From: Curtobacterium herbarum | GTDB lineage: Bacteria; Actinomycetota; Actinomycetes; Actinomycetales; Microbacteriaceae | NCBI RefSeq assembly: GCF_016907335.1 | Contig: NZ_JAFBBT010000001.1 | Span: 2,728,001 to 2,792,000 of the forward strand | Direction of reading: 5' to 3' | Length of the DNA: 64,000 nt | Part shown: positions 22,226 to 38,000 of the stretch, piece after piece | How positions within the stretch are numbered: the stretch's first letter is position 1 | How the letters are laid out: every line of letters starts with the position of its first letter | The notes under the pieces: model-generated | Databases searched by the model: none | Seen by the model: the letters and a program-made list of their open reading frames with translations, nothing else | Told to the model about the DNA's origin: nothing | Made by a program: the position numbers and the translations under genes

Positions 22226-23076
22226 GCGTCCCATCCTGGCCCACGGCCCCGGCATCGTCCGACCGTCGTGCCGTTCAGTGGAGAACTCCGCGGTGAACCG
22301 CATCGGTGCAGGAGAACCCGCACCGGACCGACACCGCCACACCTGGCCAGGCCGGCCCCGGACCTCCCGGCTGTCACCGATCGCCGTGCCAGGCGCCGGC
22401 CAGCCGACCGCGACACTCCCGGGTGCCGGTCGCCCAGAGGTCACGAAGTGTCGCTCCGAGCCCGCGAGAACGACGCTTCGTGACCCCTCGGCGGACTGAG
22501 CGGCAAGTCGTGCGACCCCGGCAGCCCACGGACGGGAGGCACACACAACGTCCGGCACCGAGCCTCCCGCCCGCCCGGCGGCCGCGACACCCCCGGGTGC
22601 CGGTCGCCGAGAGGTCACGAAGTGTCGCTCCGAGCGTGCGAGAACGACGTTTCGTGACCCCTCGGCGGAACTGAGCGGCAGGTCGTGCGACCCCGGCAGC
22701 CCACGGACGGGAGGCACACACAACGTCCGGCACCGAGCCTCCCGCCCGCCCGGCGGCCGCGACACCCCCGGGTGCCGGTCGCCGAGAGGTCACGAAGTGT
22801 CGCTCCCAGCGCGCGAGAACGACGTTTCGGGACCCCTCGGCGGAACTGAGCGGCAGGTCGTGCGACCCCGGCAGCCGACGGACGGGAGGCACACACAACG
22901 TCCGGCACCGAGCCTCCCGCCCGCCCGCCGGCCGCGACACCCCCGGGGGCCCGGCGCCGAGAGGTCACGAAGTGTCGCTCCCAGCGTGCGAGAACGACGT
23001 TTTGTGACCCCTCGGCGGAACTGAGCGGGGTGTTGTGACCGGTCGGCCGCAGGCCACAGGCCGCAGGCCGCAGGCC
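22226..23076. other. 850-bp intergenic region containing a 175-bp tandem array
   Basis: No gene is supported on either strand. 22226-22440 holds the glmU 5' region, and 22441-23028 is the repeat array. Open frames through the array exist in several frames but simply repeat with the array and have no ribosome sites or recognisable domains. Confidence 0.8.
22441..23028. repeat. Four tandem copies of a ~175-bp repeat
   Basis: Copies begin TCACGAAGTGTCGCTCC at 22441, 22615, 22790 and 22965 (periods 174, 175, 175); the last is truncated after ~64 bp. Each unit has an inverted repeat GTCACGAA...TTCGTGAC spanning ~45 bp and, about 90 bp later, a degenerate GGGAGGC...GCCTCCC hairpin resembling the terminator hairpins elsewhere in the window. 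Copies differ at few positions, so the expansion is recent. It lies between the 3' end of the MFS gene and glmU. Confidence 0.97.
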
Positions 23077-26560: not shown

Positions 26561-26703
26561 GGTGGCCGCCGAACGGGGGCTGCATGCGGACCCCGGCGCT
26601 GGGTAGCGTCAGGAGGGTGGTCGCACCCGACGGCCGCGCGCGCGTCGTCTCACCAGCGGCGCGACCGAGGGCGACGACGCCCGCACCGACGAAGAGGGGC
26701 ACG

Positions 26704-28254
26704 ATGTCCACCACCACCGGACTGGGAACACTGAACGTCGCCACGATCGTGGCCGAGGGGGCGCGACGGCACCGCAGCAAGGTCGCCGTCGTCACCGCGC
26801 TGCCCGACGGCGTCCACGAGCTGACGTACGGCGACCTGTGGGAGCGGGTCCGCCAGACCGCCGGCGGCCTGCGGGCCCGCGGGGTCGAGCGCGGCGACCG
26901 GGTCGCGGTGATGCTGCCGAACGTGCCCGAGTTCCTGGTGGCGTACTTCGCCGTCCTCGCGATGGGGGCCGTCGTCGTGCCGATCCACCTGCTGTTCAAG
27001 CGTGAGGAGATCACGCACGTCCTCGGTCGCTCCGGTGCCCGGATGCTCATCGCCGCCGGTTCCGTGCTGGCCGAGGCCGGTCCCGCAGCGGCCGACACCG
27101 GCGCTCTCGTCGTCGGCGTCGGTGCCGGCGAGGACGTCCTCTCACTGACCACGCTGTCGTCCGAGGGGGAGCCGCTCGACGCCGTCGTCGCGACGAACCC
27201 CCTGGACCCCGCCACGATCCTGTTCACCAGCGGCACCACCGGTCAGCCGAAGGGCGCCGTCGGGTCGCACTTCGCGCTCGTCGAGCAGGTCAACGTCTGC
27301 ATCATCGACGTGTTCGACCTGCGCGAGGACGACATCGTGTTCGGCGGCCTGCCGCTGTTCCACACGTTCGGGCAGACGGTCGTGATGAACACCACGCTCC
27401 GCCGCGGAGCGACGATCGTGCTGCTCCCCCGCTTCGACGCTGCGACCGCACTGCAGCTCTGCACCGAACAGCAGGTGACGGCGTTCCTCGGCGTCCCGAC
27501 GATGTTCATCGCCCTCCTCGGGGCGGCGGAGCAGCACGACGCCCGGCCGCCGTTCCGCTGGTGCGTCTCCGGCGGCGCCGCACTGCCCGCCGCCGTGCTG
27601 GAGCGGTTCGAGTCGACCTTCCGGGCGCCGATCCAGGAGGGCTACGGGCTGACCGAGACCTCCCCCGTCGTCTCGGTGAACCCGCGTGGGGTCCCGGGCC
27701 GTGCCGGCAGCGTCGGCCCCGCCGTCTGGGGTGTCGAGGTCGTCGTCGTGGACGCCGAGGTCGAGGGGCGCATCGTGCCGGTACCGGTCGGGGAACCGGG
27801 CGAGATCGTCGTCCGGGGCCACAACCTGTTCCTCGGCTACCTCGACGACCCGGAGTCGACCGAGGCCGCGATGGCCGACGGGTACCTGCGCACCGGGGAC
27901 ATCGGCGTGCTCAGCGAGGACGGGTACGTCAGCATCGTGGACCGCAAGAAGGACCTGATCCTGCGGAACGGCTACAACGTCTACCCGTCCGAGATCGAAG
28001 CGGTGCTGCACCGGCACGAGGACATCGCGTCGGCCGCGGTGTTCGGCGTCGACCACCCGGTGCACGGACAGGAGGTGCACGCGGCCGTCGTCCTCCGCGA
28101 CGGCGCCGCCGGGTCCGACGGGGTCGACGCGTTCGTCCGCGAGCGGGTCGCCTCGTTCAAGTACCCGCGGGTCTACCACGTGGTGGACGTGCTGCCGATC
28201 GGACCGAGCGGGAAGGTGCTGCGGCGCGAGCTGACGCGGGAGTACAGCGACTGA
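26704..28254 (+). CDS. AMP-dependent acyl-CoA synthetase, long-chain fatty-acid type
   Basis: 516 residues with all ANL-superfamily motifs: ATILFTSGTTGQPKGA (P-loop), PLFHTFGQ, GYGLTETSPVV, YLRTGDIG, DRKKDLILRNGYNVYPSEIE and the C-terminal PSGKVLRREL with the adenylation Lys. It activates a carboxylic acid, probably a fatty acid, as acyl-AMP and acyl-CoA in the cytosol. The ATG has GAGGGG five bases upstream; an in-frame GTG at 26617 would add 29 residues but has no good site. It stands alone, followed by a 13-bp tandem repeat and a 46-bp palindrome. Confidence 0.92.
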   Translation: MSTTTGLGTLNVATIVAEGARRHRSKVAVVTALPDGVHELTYGDLWERVRQTAGGLRARGVERGDRVAVMLPNVPEFLVAYFAVLAMGAVVVPIHLLFKREEITHVLGRSGARMLIAAGSVLAEAGPAAADTGALVVGVGAGEDVLSLTTLSSEGEPLDAVVATNPLDPATILFTSGTTGQPKGAVGSHFALVEQVNVCIIDVFDLREDDIVFGGLPLFHTFGQTVVMNTTLRRGATIVLLPRFDAATALQLCTEQQVTAFLGVPTMFIALLGAAEQHDARPPFRWCVSGGAALPAAVLERFESTFRAPIQEGYGLTETSPVVSVNPRGVPGRAGSVGPAVWGVEVVVVDAEVEGRIVPVPVGEPGEIVVRGHNLFLGYLDDPESTEAAMADGYLRTGDIGVLSEDGYVSIVDRKKDLILRNGYNVYPSEIEAVLHRHEDIASAAVFGVDHPVHGQEVHAAVVLRDGAAGSDGVDAFVRERVASFKYPRVYHVVDVLPIGPSGKVLRRELTREYSD

Positions 28255-28291
28255 CGGCGGCGGCCCGGCGCACGTGGGCGGGGCGTGCCCC

Positions 28292-28377
28292 GGGGGCACG
28301 CTCCGGGGGCACGCTCCGGGGGCACGCTCCGGGGGCACGCTCCGGGGGCACGCTCCGGGGGCACGCTCCGGGGGCAC
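28292..28377. repeat. 13-bp tandem repeat, 6.6 copies
   Basis: Six perfect copies of GGGGGCACGCTCC plus eight bases of a seventh, ending one base before hairpin B. It sits between the convergent acyl-CoA ligase and acyltransferase genes. It is a candidate variable-number locus. Confidence 0.97.
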
Positions 28378-28466: not shown

Positions 28467-31061
28467 TCAGCGCGGGATGACCGAGAACAGGAACTTCCGC
28501 CGGATCATGTACCAGCTGAGCAGGATGAGCGCGGTGTGGACGGCGGTGCCGATCCAGACGTTGCCGTAGTCCAGGGGCAGCGACGCGATCACCAGCGCGA
28601 AGAAGACCTGCCACACGAACACGTAGAGGCTGGCCTGCCCGAGCGGGATCCACAGCCACCCGATGACGGCGTTCACGGGCTTCCAGAACACCGTCAGGAT
28701 CGCGTACGAGACGATCGCGAAGAACGCGATGTCGACCAGGCGGCCCCACTGCAGGTCCACGCGCTGGTACGCGGTGTTGTACAGGTCCTGGTACATCGAC
28801 GCCGGGAACGGCACCGGGGTGAAGTCGAACCGGTCGCCCGCCCAGACGTAGACCAGGAAGGCCGCGTACCCGCAGATCAGCACGCCGATCAGCACCTTGC
28901 CGAGCCGGCCGGTCAGCGCCCGCGTGATCTGGCGACGGTAGTACCCGAGCACCAGGCCGTGGGTGAACACCACCTGCCAGGTCAGCAGCGGGAAGACCGC
29001 GTCGAACTGCGAGTTCAACGGCTTGAAGTCCGGGTTCACCGCCTGGAAGACGTAGAGCGCCCAGCTGACGACGAGCAGCGCCCACCAGTACCCGCGCCGG
29101 ATCACCCACATGAACACCGGGATGAACAGGCTGAGCACCACGAACAGGCCCATGATGTTGAACGGCCACGGGCCCATCTCGAGCAGCAGGAACTGCCGGA
29201 TGGCGTACCAGGGCGGCGGGTAGGCCAGCAGCTGCATCGCGTTCGGGTACAGGTCGTACACGCGACCCTCGGCCTGCATGCCGCCCAGGCCGGTCCCCCG
29301 GTCGGTGAACGTCGTGATCGCGTCCGTGTCGAGCAGCGGGACGAAGCTCAGGGCGAAGACGATGAGGATCACCGCGAGCGTGACGAGGTACTGCTTCCGG
29401 GCGCGCTTCCACGCACCGATCGCCGACGCCCACTCGCCGAACCGGGCGATGCCGAGCGGGTAGACCATGCCGAGCACCATGCCGGAGAGGAACACGAACA
29501 TCTCGGCGCCGGTGATCGCCCCGACCGCGTGCAGCGTCAGGTACGAGTACGGGCCGGCGACCTCGATGTGCGTGATCACCACGGCCAGGATGATGAACCC
29601 GCGGAACAGGTCGAGCCGCAGGTCACGCCCCGGTTTGCCGTCGTCCGGGTACCGCCAGCTGGGCACGAGCCGTCCGACCAGGCCGCTGACCACGAACACC
29701 AGCGCGAGCCCCGCCGACAGCCAGACGATCCACGCCATCTGGTCGCCGCCGGTGTCGAGCTGCTGGTTCGTCGCGACGGCACCCTGCTGGGCCGTCACCC
29801 GGTCGGTGACCGGACCGAACACGAAGCGGTCGGCGCCCTCCAGGTCGGACCGGAACGACGCGGCCGTCCTCGACGCATCGGTGAAGCGCCAGTCGACGAC
29901 GCGGTTGCCGGCCTCCGGTTCGCGGCGCTCGGCCTCCACGAAGGTGACGCCGCGGATCTCGGGGGTCGTGCGCACCTCGGCGATGACCTGTCGCCACCAG
30001 GCCTGCTTGACCGCGAGCTCCGTGGCGACGCCGCTGAGCGAGCGGTCGTAGAGCGCACCGGTGTCCAGGAGCAACGGTCGGTCCCGGTCGACGGCGAACC
30101 GGTCCGTGAACGAGCGGGACTGCTGCTGGTCGTAGCCCCAGCGCTCGGCGAAGCGCTGCGCGACCTCGTCGGACGCCGGCACCTCGTTCCGGGTCAGCGG
30201 GACGTCGCGGCCGGCGGCCTCGGTGGCCTTCCCCTTGCCGAAGAAGAACATCGACAGCCCGACCCAGTCCACCGACGACGCCCCGGGCCAGTACGGCTCG
30301 TACGGGTCGTCGGCCGCGGTGATCTGGCCGTCGCCGTTCGTGTCGAGCTTCTCGGTGTCGGTCGCCGACAGGTCCGCCAGGCGGCCGGCCGACGAGCCGA
30401 ACGGGTAGCCGGCACCGTACGAGGGCGACCACACCATGCGGGCGTCCGACTTCCCCGCGTGCACGTGGCGCGCCAGGGTCCGGAAGGCCTGCACGAACTG
30501 GGTCGGCTGCTGGCCCCAGCGCACCCACGTGCCGTTCATCTGCGGGGCGAAGCGGACCAGGACCTGGGTGTCGTACTGCCGGTGGGCGCGCTCGAACAGC
30601 GTGTTCGCGTGGCGGGCATCGGCCGTCGTCAGGGACTCGAGGGACTGGTCCGGCACCAGGCTGACGACGAGCACGGCGCCCTGTGCGGCGGCGGCCCGGG
30701 TGGAGCGGAGGAACTGCTCCTGGGCGCCCCCGTCGAGCGGGTAGGCGATCTCGACGCCGTACATCGACGGGGTCGCACCGAGGCGGCCCTCGTAGCCGTC
30801 GGGAGCGTCGGAGCCCCAGTCCAGGTCGGGGCCGAACCAGGTCCGGCCGGATGCGGGTCCGACGGCCGATCCCTTCGGCGGCGTCGCGGTCGGCGTGCCC
30901 GTCGGCGTGCTCGTCGCGGTACCCGTCGGTCCGCTCGTCGCAGTGCTGGTGGGTGTGCTCGTCGGTGCGCTCGTCGCCGCGTTCGCCGGCAGGGCACCGC
31001 CCAGCAGGACCACGCCGGCGACGAGGAGGAGGGCGACGATGCGCGCCACGAGCTGCCTCAC
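28467..31061 (-). CDS. Secreted GH26-like domain fused to OpgC-type membrane acyltransferase
   Basis: 864 residues from GTG 31061. A signal peptide (VARIVALLLVAGVVLLGGAL, then PANA) and a Thr/Pro/Ser linker (~30-70) precede a glycosidase-like TIM barrel (~75-420): LVRFAPQMNGTWVRWG, DARMVWSPSYGAG, an EF-hand-like DTNGDGQITAADD, SVDWVGLSMFF. GH26 enzymes have HEMNG and a later Glu; here the positions are Gln174 (APQMNG) and Asp333 (LLLDTGALY), so it may be non-catalytic. From ~430 come a membrane anchor and the OpgC acyltransferase domain (LRLDLFRGFIILAVVITHIE; about 10 helices). It probably O-acylates and binds an extracellular glucan. The GTGA overlap couples it to the ATPase gene. Confidence 0.87.
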   Translation of the reverse strand: MRQLVARIVALLLVAGVVLLGGALPANAATSAPTSTPTSTATSGPTGTATSTPTGTPTATPPKGSAVGPASGRTWFGPDLDWGSDAPDGYEGRLGATPSMYGVEIAYPLDGGAQEQFLRSTRAAAAQGAVLVVSLVPDQSLESLTTADARHANTLFERAHRQYDTQVLVRFAPQMNGTWVRWGQQPTQFVQAFRTLARHVHAGKSDARMVWSPSYGAGYPFGSSAGRLADLSATDTEKLDTNGDGQITAADDPYEPYWPGASSVDWVGLSMFFFGKGKATEAAGRDVPLTRNEVPASDEVAQRFAERWGYDQQQSRSFTDRFAVDRDRPLLLDTGALYDRSLSGVATELAVKQAWWRQVIAEVRTTPEIRGVTFVEAERREPEAGNRVVDWRFTDASRTAASFRSDLEGADRFVFGPVTDRVTAQQGAVATNQQLDTGGDQMAWIVWLSAGLALVFVVSGLVGRLVPSWRYPDDGKPGRDLRLDLFRGFIILAVVITHIEVAGPYSYLTLHAVGAITGAEMFVFLSGMVLGMVYPLGIARFGEWASAIGAWKRARKQYLVTLAVILIVFALSFVPLLDTDAITTFTDRGTGLGGMQAEGRVYDLYPNAMQLLAYPPPWYAIRQFLLLEMGPWPFNIMGLFVVLSLFIPVFMWVIRRGYWWALLVVSWALYVFQAVNPDFKPLNSQFDAVFPLLTWQVVFTHGLVLGYYRRQITRALTGRLGKVLIGVLICGYAAFLVYVWAGDRFDFTPVPFPASMYQDLYNTAYQRVDLQWGRLVDIAFFAIVSYAILTVFWKPVNAVIGWLWIPLGQASLYVFVWQVFFALVIASLPLDYGNVWIGTAVHTALILLSWYMIRRKFLFSVIPR

Positions 31062-31468
31062 CGGTCGCACACCAACACCCAGACGTTCCGCCCACCCTCG
31101 TGGTGGTGTTCGAGTCGGTCGAGCGCCGCGATCGCCAGGGCCAGGCCGCGGCCGCCCTCGTCCTCCGGGTCGGCCATCGTCACGGCGCCGAGGTCGATGT
31201 CCACCGGCATGCCGTTGTCCGACAGGACCGCGACGAGCTCGGTGTCGTGGGCGGTCAGGTCGAGGACGAACCGGCGCCCCTCGTGCGGGTCCGACCGTCG
31301 GGTGTGCTCGATGACGTTCGCGGCGACCTCCACCAGGGCGGTCTCCAACCGGAAGCGCATCGTCGGGTCGTCGATGCCCTGGCCGTCCCACCACGCCGCG
31401 AAGGTGTCCTGCACCGTGTCGAGCGACGCCGGGACCGCGGGGACGTCGATGCTCGCGTGCGTGCTCAC
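31058..31468 (-). CDS. RsbW-like ATP-binding protein (HATPase_c)
   Basis: 136 residues, a stand-alone GHKL ATPase fold: N box EVAANVIEH (Asn51), G1 box SDNG (83-86), G2 box EGGRGLALA (104-112). Such proteins act as anti-sigma-factor kinases that phosphorylate a STAS antagonist, or as partners of PP2C phosphatases. No sigma factor, STAS or PP2C gene is nearby. Start and stop both overlap neighbours by 4 bp (GTGA), so it is made together with the polysaccharide synthase and the acyltransferase. A direct regulatory role on that machinery is inferred only. Confidence 0.85.
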   Translation of the reverse strand: MSTHASIDVPAVPASLDTVQDTFAAWWDGQGIDDPTMRFRLETALVEVAANVIEHTRRSDPHEGRRFVLDLTAHDTELVAVLSDNGMPVDIDLGAVTMADPEDEGGRGLALAIAALDRLEHHHEGGRNVWVLVCDR

Positions 31469-33489
31469 AGAGGCCCTCCGACCGTCGTGGACTCGTGCTC
31501 CAGGGGCACCGGAGCCTCGGGCCCGCGGTACCGCACCGCCCGGATCACGATGCTGAAGATGAACAGGTCGAAGACGACCCAGGCGGTGTTGACCAGCGGC
31601 GCGATGCCCTCCGCCTGCCCGGTCAGGTACCGGATGCCGATCATCACCAGGGCCGCGGCGAGCGCCGCCATCGCGACGAGCTGCGGCTTCACCAGGTCCC
31701 AGCGCGGCTTGACGTCCGTGGTGTCACGGACCTTCGGCGTCACACGGAAGCCGAGCGGTCGGCCGCGGAACACGTTCTCGAACGCACTCGTGACCGACTC
31801 GATCCACACCGGGAAGAGTGCCAGCGAGTACTGCTGCCCGCGCCACGTCGGTCTGCCCGCCGCGACCACCCAGAACAGCAGCTGGTTGAGCACCAGGAAC
31901 GGGATCAGCCGGGCGAAGAAGTCGGTGCTGTACGCCTGGACCGGGACGACGCCGAACGACAGGCAGAGCACCGGCGCAGCGATGTAGACCACGGCGGCGA
32001 AGCCCGACAGGTAGCTCCACATCGTCGAGAAGTACATCAGGCGCTGCCCGAACGACAGGCCCTTCTGCACAAGGGGGTTCTCGCGGAAGAACACCTGCAT
32101 GGTGCCCTGCGCCCAGCGGAGCCGCTGCACGAGCATCGTCTCGAGGTCCTCGGGTGCGAGCCCCTTCGCCAGGATCTCGTCGTGGTACGCGGACCGCCAG
32201 CCGAGGCCGTGCAGGCGCATCGCGGTCGCCATGTCCTCGGTCACCGAGATGGTGGCCAGCGGCATGATCGCCTGGGCCTCGTCGTCGCGGTTCACGTCGA
32301 GCGCCCGGGCGAGCACCGCGATCGACTCGATCGCGGCCACCGGGGACGCACCCCGCTGTCCGAGGACGTCGAGCGCGGCGTCGTCGAGACCGGCGAAGGT
32401 GTTCGCGTCGGTCGACATCGCGGCGAGTTCCTGGAGGTCCGCGCGTACCGACTCGAGGTCCGCGGCGGCGAACCGGAACGCGATCGCGTCGATGCCGCGC
32501 TGGAACCGGTAGGTCACGTCGCCGAGCGGTTCGCCCGCGGCGCTCTCGTCGCGCGCACGGTCGACGACCCCCTCGGCGTCGTCGAGGGCGATGAGCACGC
32601 GCTCGTCGGTCTCGGTCTCGCGCGCCCGGCCCAGGAGCTTCTTGGCGGTCTTGATGGTGCGCTGGACACTAGTCTCGACCTCGCGCACGTACCGCGTGAT
32701 GCCGAGCTGCATCAGCGCCTCCCGCCGGAGGATCGCGTTCGACCCGCAGAAGAACGCGGCGTTCCAGCCGTCCTTCGACTGCTGGATCGGCCCGTAGAAC
32801 AGCGGCGCCTGACTGCCGAGCGGGTCCGAGTCGGGCACGTTCTCGAACCACTGCGGGGTCTGCACGAGCGCCATCCGCTCGTCCTTGAAGTACCCGAGGG
32901 TGCGGTCGAGGATCGACGGCTCCGGCACCTGGTCGGCGTCGAGGATGAGCAGGAACTCCCCCTGCGTGGCGAGCAGCGCGTTGTTCAGGTTGCCGGCCTT
33001 GGCGTGCCGGGGGCGGTCCACCCAGTCCTTGCCGCGGGTGATCACGCCGAGCCCCGCGGACTCGGCGGCCGCACGCATCTCGGGGCGGTTGCCGTCGTCG
33101 AGGATCCACGTGGTGTGCGGGTGCGTGATCGCCTTCGCCGCGAGGGCGGTGCGCATCACCAGGTCGATCGGTTCGTTGTAGGTGGTGATGAAGACGTCGA
33201 CCGTCACGTCGGTGCTCGGCTTCGTCGGCGGTTCGCCACGCTCGCGGAGCTTCCACGCCCCGAACGCGAAGAGCACCGAGTCGATCACGCTGTACGTCTC
33301 GGCGAGGATCAGCGGCACGGCTATCCACCACGAGTGCCAGTTCACCGAGGCGATCCAGCGCCAGCCGACGTAGTTCAGGCCGGACACCGCGGCGAGCACG
33401 GCCACGGTCCGGACGGCCAGGAGCCGGCGGCGCGGCGTTCCGACGGTCAGTCGACGTCGATCGCGTCGACCGACGTCCAACGCCGTCAT
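31465..33489 (-). CDS. Cellulose-synthase-like processive GT2 glycosyltransferase
   Basis: 674 residues. Two N-terminal membrane helices precede the GT2 domain with the processive D,D,D,QxxRW set: DDG (131-133), DADQ (184-187), TED (416-418), QRLRW (455-459). FCGSNAILRREA (247-258) is the BcsA-like FCGS loop. Several membrane helices follow (from ~475), forming the export channel. It should polymerise a UDP-sugar into a beta-glucan-like chain and extrude it. No PilZ domain is present, so c-di-GMP control like BcsA is not expected. An extra ~140-residue helical insert lies between FCGS and TED. First gene of a three-gene coupled operon. Confidence 0.92.
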   Translation of the reverse strand: MTALDVGRRDRRRLTVGTPRRRLLAVRTVAVLAAVSGLNYVGWRWIASVNWHSWWIAVPLILAETYSVIDSVLFAFGAWKLRERGEPPTKPSTDVTVDVFITTYNEPIDLVMRTALAAKAITHPHTTWILDDGNRPEMRAAAESAGLGVITRGKDWVDRPRHAKAGNLNNALLATQGEFLLILDADQVPEPSILDRTLGYFKDERMALVQTPQWFENVPDSDPLGSQAPLFYGPIQQSKDGWNAAFFCGSNAILRREALMQLGITRYVREVETSVQRTIKTAKKLLGRARETETDERVLIALDDAEGVVDRARDESAAGEPLGDVTYRFQRGIDAIAFRFAAADLESVRADLQELAAMSTDANTFAGLDDAALDVLGQRGASPVAAIESIAVLARALDVNRDDEAQAIMPLATISVTEDMATAMRLHGLGWRSAYHDEILAKGLAPEDLETMLVQRLRWAQGTMQVFFRENPLVQKGLSFGQRLMYFSTMWSYLSGFAAVVYIAAPVLCLSFGVVPVQAYSTDFFARLIPFLVLNQLLFWVVAAGRPTWRGQQYSLALFPVWIESVTSAFENVFRGRPLGFRVTPKVRDTTDVKPRWDLVKPQLVAMAALAAALVMIGIRYLTGQAEGIAPLVNTAWVVFDLFIFSIVIRAVRYRGPEAPVPLEHESTTVGGPL

Positions 33490-34752: not shown

Positions 34753-35034
34753 TTACGCGCCGCCACCCGCGGTGAAGATGTCCTGCGAGATCTTGTCGAG
34801 CTGCGTGCGGAGCTGCTCGAGTTCGGTCTTCGCCTTGTCCAGCGCAGCCTTCGTCTCGGGCCAGGTCGACCCACGGAAGTTCGACGCCAGCGGGCCGTCC
34901 CACACGTTCGAGTCGGACAGCACGCGCCCCTGGGCGTCGAGCTGCGAGATCTGGTCCGTGAAGCCACCGTTCACGATGGACTGGATCTGGCGGATGGCGG
35001 TCTTCGCCTGTTCGGTCGAAAGCACACGCGACAT
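34753..35034 (-). CDS. WXG100-family small secreted protein
   Basis: 93 residues, the usual size of ESAT-6-like proteins: two helices around a central W-D-G turn (SNVWDGPLASNF, residues ~43-55), with heptad-like KAALDKAKTELEQLRTQLDK in helix two. The ATG follows AGAGGGG. Such proteins are exported by type VII secretion as hairpin dimers. No FtsK/EccC-type ATPase or second WXG gene lies in the window, so this is an orphan. It may chaperone or accompany a toxin such as the Rhs protein at 58871, which is speculative. Confidence 0.85.
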   Translation of the reverse strand: MSRVLSTEQAKTAIRQIQSIVNGGFTDQISQLDAQGRVLSDSNVWDGPLASNFRGSTWPETKAALDKAKTELEQLRTQLDKISQDIFTAGGGA

Positions 35035-35152
35035 GGTGAACCCCTCTTTTTCTCTTCGTACCTGCACCCCCGCGCAGAAGATCCCCCGGAGGCTCTGACG
35101 TGCTCAACCATACCGGCTCCCGGGGCCGACAGGCCAGGTTCTCCACAGACAG

Positions 35153-37917: not shown

Positions 37918-37937
37918 GGTGTCTCCTCTTCGAGTCG

Positions 37938-38000
37938 TGCGCGGTGCGCGGTGCGCGGTGCGCGGTGCGCGGTGCGCGGTGCGCGGTGCGCGGTGCGCGG
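37938..38000. repeat. Nine perfect 7-bp repeats in a divergent promoter
   Basis: Nine uninterrupted TGCGCGG units lie 20 bp upstream of the SDR start and 51 bp from the TetR start. Copy-number change would shift promoter or operator spacing for one or both genes. A GCACTGAGTGC inverted repeat (38012-38022) next to it is a candidate TetR operator. Confidence 0.95.

Follow-up and report, generated by a model that had tools for sequence, protein, structure and literature searches.

Partner switches built from three kinds of protein, a PP2C phosphatase, a STAS protein with a DSSG phospho-site and an RsbW-type GHKL kinase, are known from the sigma-B and sigma-F circuits (RsbU/RsbV/RsbW and SpoIIE/SpoIIAA/SpoIIAB). 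STAS/kinase/phosphatase switches likewise control polysaccharide or biofilm in Vibrio fischeri (SypA/SypE) and Nostoc (HmpUVW), as described in passages of PMC8256260, where the target of SypA is called unknown. According to PMC8457831, SiaC, the partner protein of the SiaABCD system of Pseudomonas aeruginosa, binds to SiaD, an enzyme with a helical stalk, at that stalk. Here, a stretch of 64,000 nucleotides of the 3.52 Mb genome of Curtobacterium herbarum (G000:C1:2728001-2792000, hereafter the window) was analyzed, in which three genes encode a cellulose-like synthase of glycosyltransferase family 2 (GT2), an RsbW-like ATPase (ATP1) and a fusion of a glycoside hydrolase family 26 (GH26)-like domain with an OpgC-type acyltransferase. 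On balance, it appeared probable that the synthase is the target of a partner switch based on serine phosphorylation, which would act by way of a helical insert and probably through a STAS protein, in this lineage in trans.

The GT2 protein matched Cellulose_synt (E 2.8e-21) and Glycos_transf_2 (E 2.6e-15), and both a comparison of its family profile with Escherichia coli BcsA and a structure model assigned it the catalytic and membrane fold of BcsA. An initial model built from 15 sequences was discarded owing to a predicted local distance difference test score of 58, and a later one was used instead. The score against the BcsA equivalog model TIGR03030 was 337.5 bits, under the cut-off of 699.1. 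The alignment to E. coli BcsA ended at residue 683 of its 886 residues, near the GT2 C-terminus, and no PilZ family match was found in GT2 at E 0.01, which agreed with the lack of a PilZ domain reported in an initial annotation of this DNA. Directly before the VTED motif, the synthase carried a helical insert of ~148 residues. It was flanked by BcsA residues 447 and 448, with none missing (family profile positions 244 to 393), and helices were predicted in the GT2 model at residues 256-292, 296-317, 322-358, 364-378 and 384-396. A database search with the insert region (residues 255-425), in which 7999 candidates were scored, gave at least 1719 matching proteins at E 0.001, and the 120 matches listed each spanned 97-100% of this region. 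The nearest named relative among the matches listed was the GT2 of Curtobacterium salicis WW7, 99% identical, although records of the source genome itself were possibly excluded.

The conservation of the operon was investigated in 166 loci with a GT2 relative. The best 80 were kept, and profiles made from a subset of them were used to scan all 80. The initial annotation had taken absence of the ATPase from most homologous operons as a result that would count against its proposal; the ATPase was present at 78 of the 80 loci. The main Curtobacterium clade accounted for 39 loci, with the gene order GT2-ATPase-GH26/OpgC, the ATPase in all 39 and neither STAS nor PP2C in any. The other 41 loci came from one further Curtobacterium, Frigoribacterium, Microbacterium, Aeromicrobium, Nocardioides, Arthrobacter, Paenarthrobacter and unclassified relatives. 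There, a STAS gene followed GT2 in 40 loci and the ATPase was found in 39, while a strong PP2C (>200 bits) lay nearby in 36, either just upstream (25), downstream on the other strand (10) or downstream on the same strand (1). The complete form of the operon was PP2C-GT2-STAS-RsbW-GH26/OpgC. Pfam searches of representatives returned a SpoIIE-type PP2C, STAS and HATPase_c_2; of four PP2Cs scanned, three also had a GAF or receiver domain. The STAS protein matched the anti-sigma-antagonist model TIGR00377 over its cut-off. The phospho-site DSSG was present in 63/63 operon STAS rows (57 distinct sequences) and in 28/28 rows of unlinked STAS (23 distinct sequences). Because homologous operons hold PP2C, STAS and ATPase together, the ATPase was assigned as the kinase-type member of a partner-switching module. 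The view of the initial annotation that a stand-alone ATPase formed a system of its own did not hold and was rejected, since partners are present in nearly all operons outside the main clade, and a STAS gene and a second ATPase persist elsewhere in the C. herbarum genome; the absence of STAS and PP2C from the operon here is a lineage-specific loss.

Further, the module was found to follow the insert. In class and phylum samples, adjacent STAS and ATPase genes were recorded at 20 of 22 insert-bearing loci and at none of 37 insert-less BcsA-like loci (flanks up to ~5 kb; Fisher p 8e-14, kinship not corrected). The locus L267 was counted as having no module, as its STAS match of 59 bits lay 2.7 kb from an insert-less GT2 on the other strand and no ATPase was present. 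Since the module adjoins an insert-bearing synthase in related bacteria, it was suggested that the switch acts directly on the enzyme and not on gene expression. A switch acting on the synthase or the exported product, with c-di-GMP (cyclic diguanosine monophosphate) not the obvious signal, had been put forward in the initial annotation, and a switch on the synthase in place of c-di-GMP was the best reading.

It was proposed that a PP2C with a GAF or receiver sensor would take the phosphate off the STAS serine and that the RsbW-like kinase would phosphorylate it again. The phosphorylation state of STAS would then set the binding of the module to the helical insert, beside the VTED finger motif of the catalytic domain, and the partner switch would replace the c-di-GMP/PilZ switch of BcsA. 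STAS would most likely be the direct ligand of the insert, with the ATPase serving as the STAS kinase. In the main Curtobacterium clade, the retained ATP1 would share a single unlinked STAS with a second ATPase (ATP2), in trans. These steps, like the sign of control and the nature of the polymer, are inferred.

The loss from the operon was followed in 66 Curtobacterium genomes, numbered with the source genome as G000. A STAS-less operon was present in 59 of them and a complete operon in two (G051 and G064), whereas G040 carried only a complete second GT2-STAS-ATPase operon; no such GT2 was found in G004, G021, G025 (65% completeness) and G050. A convergent adenosine monophosphate (AMP)-binding ligase follows the operon of the window and also the complete Curtobacterium form, so the locus is the same and the loss of STAS and PP2C took place there. 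In a tree containing 14 of the 39 sequences, the STAS-less ATPases formed one clade (support 100/99), placed next to those of the complete Curtobacterium and Frigoribacterium operons. Exactly one STAS of the operon family was detected in 61 of the 66 genomes and two in none (E 0.001). Three of these lay in a GT2 operon and 58 were unlinked, in 57 of the 59 STAS-less genomes and in G004. The two STAS-less genomes with no unlinked STAS were G009 (790 contigs) and G022 (73% complete), and it was also missing from G051 and G064, which have the complete operon. GT2 and STAS co-occurred, with STAS in 60 of 62 genomes with GT2 and in one of four without (Fisher p 0.0009, kinship not corrected). Relatives of the operon PP2C numbered 2-6 in the 61 genomes with STAS, two in G022 and three in G009; G021, G025 and G050, which had neither STAS nor GT2, contained 0, 0 and 1, respectively.

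All three STAS-domain matches of the C. herbarum genome were outside the window, in agreement with the earlier remark that no STAS gene was nearby. One was a small stand-alone STAS with a DSSG site (STAS2; G000:C1:1972938-1973225, a frame of 127 aa); the other two were in frames of 579 and 549 aa. By coordinates, STAS2 adjoins a second ATPase match, ATP2, which brings the ATPases of the operon family in this genome to two. More distant ATPase matches besides ATP1 and ATP2 were noted in G011, G034, G035, G048 and G049 (36-41% identity where long), some of them in frames of ~450-500 aa. Four SpoIIE-domain PP2C frames over cut-off were found elsewhere in the C. herbarum genome and none in the operon.

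The origin of the STAS2-ATP2 pair was traced by trees and synteny. STAS2 grouped with the STAS of the second operon of G040 (96/94; 10 of 28 rows in the tree), ATP2 grouped with the ATPase of that operon (99/93; 8 rows in the tree), and the G040 operon sits between ppc and an AraC-type gene, the very position of STAS2-ATP2 in C. herbarum. By these comparisons, the pair is what is left of a second GT2 operon after the loss of its GT2, and it follows that the common ancestor probably had both operons. At the ppc locus of G051 and G064, only a PP2C is retained of the module. The main clade thus probably keeps GT2, ATP1 and OpgC of one operon and STAS and ATP2 of the other. A fuller scheme, in which the switch is c-di-GMP-independent and post-translational, STAS or the kinase binds the insert, and the two operons decayed reciprocally into one trans module in which several PP2Cs serve as inputs to one STAS, is put forward tentatively, as a reading that could well be wrong.

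The ATPase left behind was examined for signs of inactivation. ATP1 matched HATPase_c_2 (PF13581; E 3.1e-14, 53.5 bits, over cut-off), and the profile of its family matched RsbW (6m36) at E 5.8e-7. The N box and GRGLA were intact in 39/39 STAS-less ATPases, and no stop codons occurred in ATP1 of any of the 59 STAS-less genomes. The ratios of nonsynonymous to synonymous substitution rates (dN/dS) were estimated by NG86 from pairs with dS of 0.2-1.5 only. Median values were 0.35 for ATP1 of STAS-less operons, 0.40 and 0.41 for two sets of ATPases from STAS-bearing operons, 0.14 for STAS2 and 0.29 for ATP2. ATP1 is therefore under purifying selection, and relaxed selection, considered as an explanation, was dropped as dN/dS was not raised. 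On the STAS-less branch, the rate of change of ATP1 exceeded that of the GT2 core (ratio of ratios 2.28, 95% 1.10-5.04, bootstrap of sites). Faster evolution of the insert on this branch was likewise considered and given up, its acceleration not being significant by the same bootstrap (1.48, 0.70-3.21). Among outgroup-invariant sites, fixed stem changes were enriched in the insert (8/79 against 8/353 in the rest, p 0.003); the ATPase had 8/75 (p 0.002) and the OpgC fusion 5/272 (p 0.78). The loss of STAS and PP2C from the operon, the fast change of ATP1 on the stem and a substitution in the GH26-like domain on the same branch (described below), a sign of changed constraint, would suit an ATP1 that is a decaying relic of the module and survives only because it is coupled to the adjacent genes. 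Such a relic is very improbable in view of the open frames, the intact motifs and a dN/dS no higher than in STAS-bearing operons.

To identify the likely ligand of the insert, evolutionary distances were compared in 51 non-redundant complete operons, with the insert distances corrected for the GT2 core. The residual correlation was 0.38 for insert and STAS (p 0.002) and 0.12 for insert and ATPase (p 0.054). For five contiguous GT2 control regions, the values ranged from -0.19 to 0.13 against STAS and from 0.11 to 0.20 against the ATPase. The comparison moderately favours STAS as the partner of the insert. These values bear on another explanation, by which the ATPase would be the direct effector, binding GT2 as RsbW binds sigma-B, with STAS only titrating the ATPase away; in Curtobacterium the ATPase alone would then inhibit or license the synthase, with the ATP level or STAS2 as the input. 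The ATPase is the sole regulator kept in every STAS-less operon (39/39 named loci, 59/59 genomes), its start overlaps the GT2 stop codon, and it remains under purifying selection while having outpaced the GT2 core, all of which a direct effector would fit. However, the insert co-varies family-wide more with STAS than with the ATPase, with which other GT2 regions co-vary as much as the insert does, the acceleration of the insert was not significant, and STAS has been kept elsewhere in nearly all STAS-less genomes. We therefore regard a directly acting ATPase as unlikely and prefer a STAS protein that binds the insert and is phosphorylated by the ATPase.

Several observations weigh against a switch that works through STAS and the insert. 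The mirror-tree signal was moderate, the 140 most variable core columns giving 0.28 with STAS and 0.31 with the ATPase. A comparison within Curtobacterium, attempted for separating STAS2, ATP2 and ATP1, was abandoned because all three correlated (21 genomes); with 17 genomes and three controls the values were 0.41 for insert-STAS2, 0.41 for insert-ATP2 and 0.28 for insert-ATP1, with permutation p values that ignore kinship. As the STAS-less ATPases form a single clade in the tree of 14 of 39 sequences, the loss of STAS in Curtobacterium counts as one event. Among the 80 loci, L145 has a whole GT2 with neither STAS nor ATPase, and L114 has STAS and no ATPase. Two insert-bearing loci of the class and phylum samples were without the module, although L204 lies at a contig end and L210 holds a GT2 fragment. 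G004 keeps STAS2-ATP2 with no insert-bearing GT2 found, hence the pair may act on something else; no candidate target other than the insert-bearing GT2 was identified, and G004 speaks against its being the exclusive one. In the Arthrobacter-type clade, ATP binding is doubtful and kinase activity not assured because the G1 box is degenerate. It was observed in this connection that the operon ATPases of L139 and L148 (Arthrobacter, Paenarthrobacter) had lost the DxG of the G1 box and kept the N box and GRGLA.

A target among sigma factors was also considered. In the genome, no sigma factor of the SigB/F/G type reached the curated cut-off (best TIGR02980 score 132.9 against 234.35 bits; sigma factors of the extracytoplasmic function (ECF) type were not surveyed), and such a target was disfavoured. 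The sigma proteins picked up by the SigB/F/G model were RpoD-type, a second RpoD/SigB-like and a FliA/WhiG-like protein, and its five matches were all outside the window. No sigma factor was present among five larger neighbours (23-38 kb of the window), the AMP ligase and three small proteins, an ECF search not having been made elsewhere in the window. Within the same bounds, the earlier statement that no sigma factor is nearby fits these results. It is quite improbable that the module is a classical anti-sigma or general transcription switch merely travelling with a polysaccharide operon. Its PP2C, STAS and RsbW-like proteins are indeed parts of sigma-B/sigma-F circuits, and STAS scores over the TIGR00377 cut-off, but a matching sigma factor was absent from the searches above and the module is tied to a single GT2 subtype, which carries an additional domain.

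The third gene product contained OpgC_C at residues 479-852 (E 1.7e-52, 178.9 bits against a cut-off of 21.4), preceded by a GH26-like half and, by eye, a hydrophobic, signal-peptide-like N-terminus. PF02156 matched this half in 8 of 13 family members (best E 1.1e-5) and was not listed for the window protein itself at E 1; the family profile matched the GH26 beta-1,3-xylanase 2ddx (E 5.5e-6). The Glu of the motif RFAPEMNG is presumably the GH26 acid/base, its position being backed by the 2ddx alignment. This position was Glu in 39/39 STAS-bearing rows (37 distinct sequences) and Gln in 38/38 STAS-less rows (37 named loci and the window copy). Left out of the count were L072, L143, L145, L195 and L197, where the match began past the N-terminal half or was too short, and loci with no OpgC match, such as L070 at a contig end. 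The Glu to Gln change and the loss of STAS and PP2C fall on one branch. The presumed nucleophile position (30063-30065 in the window) was Asp in the 38 STAS-less rows, and in the 39 STAS-bearing rows it was Asp in 21, Glu in 7, Gln in 1 and Arg in 3, with 7 rows too short. The GH26-like domain is here probably not a normal hydrolase and may bind or guide the polymer. Proteins matching the GH26-like half also occurred in other Actinomycetota, close to BcsA-like GT2 genes without the insert (L252, L253 and L266), so this partner is wider in occurrence than the switch.

The features are collected in the table. The trio lies on the minus strand in the order GT2, ATPase, GH26-like/OpgC fusion, where the initial annotation had placed it; the identities given there to the three proteins were confirmed by domain matches, and both GTGA overlaps were found. 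By the terminal four bases, the next-gene starts not having been checked singly, the GT2 gene ended in GTGA in 39/39 STAS-less relatives and the ATPase gene in 33/39. Translation of the trio as a unit is plausible on this arrangement.

Table. Positions of the synthase operon, its parts and related features (window coordinates unless a contig is named).
Feature	Position	Strand	Basis
BcsA-like GT2 synthase, 674 aa, no PilZ	31465..33489	-	
GT2 helical insert, ~residues 264-408, proposed docking domain of the switch	32266..32700	-	BcsA alignment, predicted helices
RsbW-like GHKL ATPase (ATP1), 136 aa, GTG start	31058..31468	-	PF13581, RsbW 6m36 profile match, motifs
Fusion of GH26-like domain and OpgC-type membrane acyltransferase, 864 aa	28467..31061	-	domain searches
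Gln174 codon at GH26 acid/base Glu position (RFAPQMNG)	30540..30542	-	alignment rows, 2ddx alignment
GTGA stop/start overlap, GT2-ATPase	31465..31468	-	sequence
GTGA stop/start overlap, ATPase-OpgC	31058..31061	-	sequence
AMP-binding ligase, convergent, downstream of the trio, outside the system	26701..28254	+	common to STAS-bearing Curtobacterium operon
STAS2-ATP2 pair between ppc-like gene and AraC-type regulator	G000:C1:1972525-1973261 (L188:6502-7298)		

In a profile scan, the five larger neighbours were identified as major facilitator superfamily, AraC, MarR, helicase and short-chain dehydrogenase proteins. A 104-aa protein at 34753-35067 gave a weak WXG100 match (E 0.0074, under cut-off). 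Three tandem repeats were recorded: a perfect 13-bp repeat of 6.8 copies in the spacer between the OpgC gene end and the convergent AMP ligase (28290-28377), a 175-bp repeat of 3.6 copies with 95% match (22394-23028), and a perfect 7-bp repeat (GTGCGCG) of 9.1 copies near the start of the short-chain dehydrogenase gene (37937-38000).

The window appears to hold a reduced, lineage-specific form of a partner-switching module wired to a cellulose-like synthase. One synthase subtype with one extra domain offers a concrete candidate target for a STAS switch and, if this is true, processive beta-glycan synthases would be controlled by a phospho-partner switch as well as by PilZ/c-di-GMP. In the Curtobacterium clade, a deletion experiment has been made by nature; the clade shows which parts of the module can go or move, and it makes the choice between STAS and kinase as effector directly testable. 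No report of this operon was found in the open-access literature by titles and abstract starts, which is not proof that there is none.

Compared with BcsA cellulose synthase, the GT2 described here has no PilZ domain, carries the extra residues before VTED and scores under the TIGR03030 cut-off. The fusion protein combines an OpgC_C domain with a GH26-like motif in its N-terminal half and differs from GH26 enzymes in the acid/base Gln of the STAS-less clade. In contrast to the sigma-B and sigma-F switches, the module is tied to a GT2 with a dedicated insert, no such sigma factor over cut-off is present in the genome, and STAS and PP2C are unlinked from the operon in this lineage. No synthase target is named for SypA/SypE or HmpUVW in the passages of PMC8256260, whereas here the gene order ties the module to one synthase subtype and makes the insert the candidate target. 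SiaABCD (PMC8457831) is a precedent for a module partner binding the helices of an enzyme, although the target there is a diguanylate cyclase and not a glycan synthase; the PP2C of L106 matched the SiaA model weakly (E 7.5e-5; 21.5 bits, cut-off 700). All parts belong to known families, and the dedicated insert, the lack of a SigB/F/G sigma factor and the reciprocal decay of two operons are, as far as the open-access literature searched shows, a new wiring of them.

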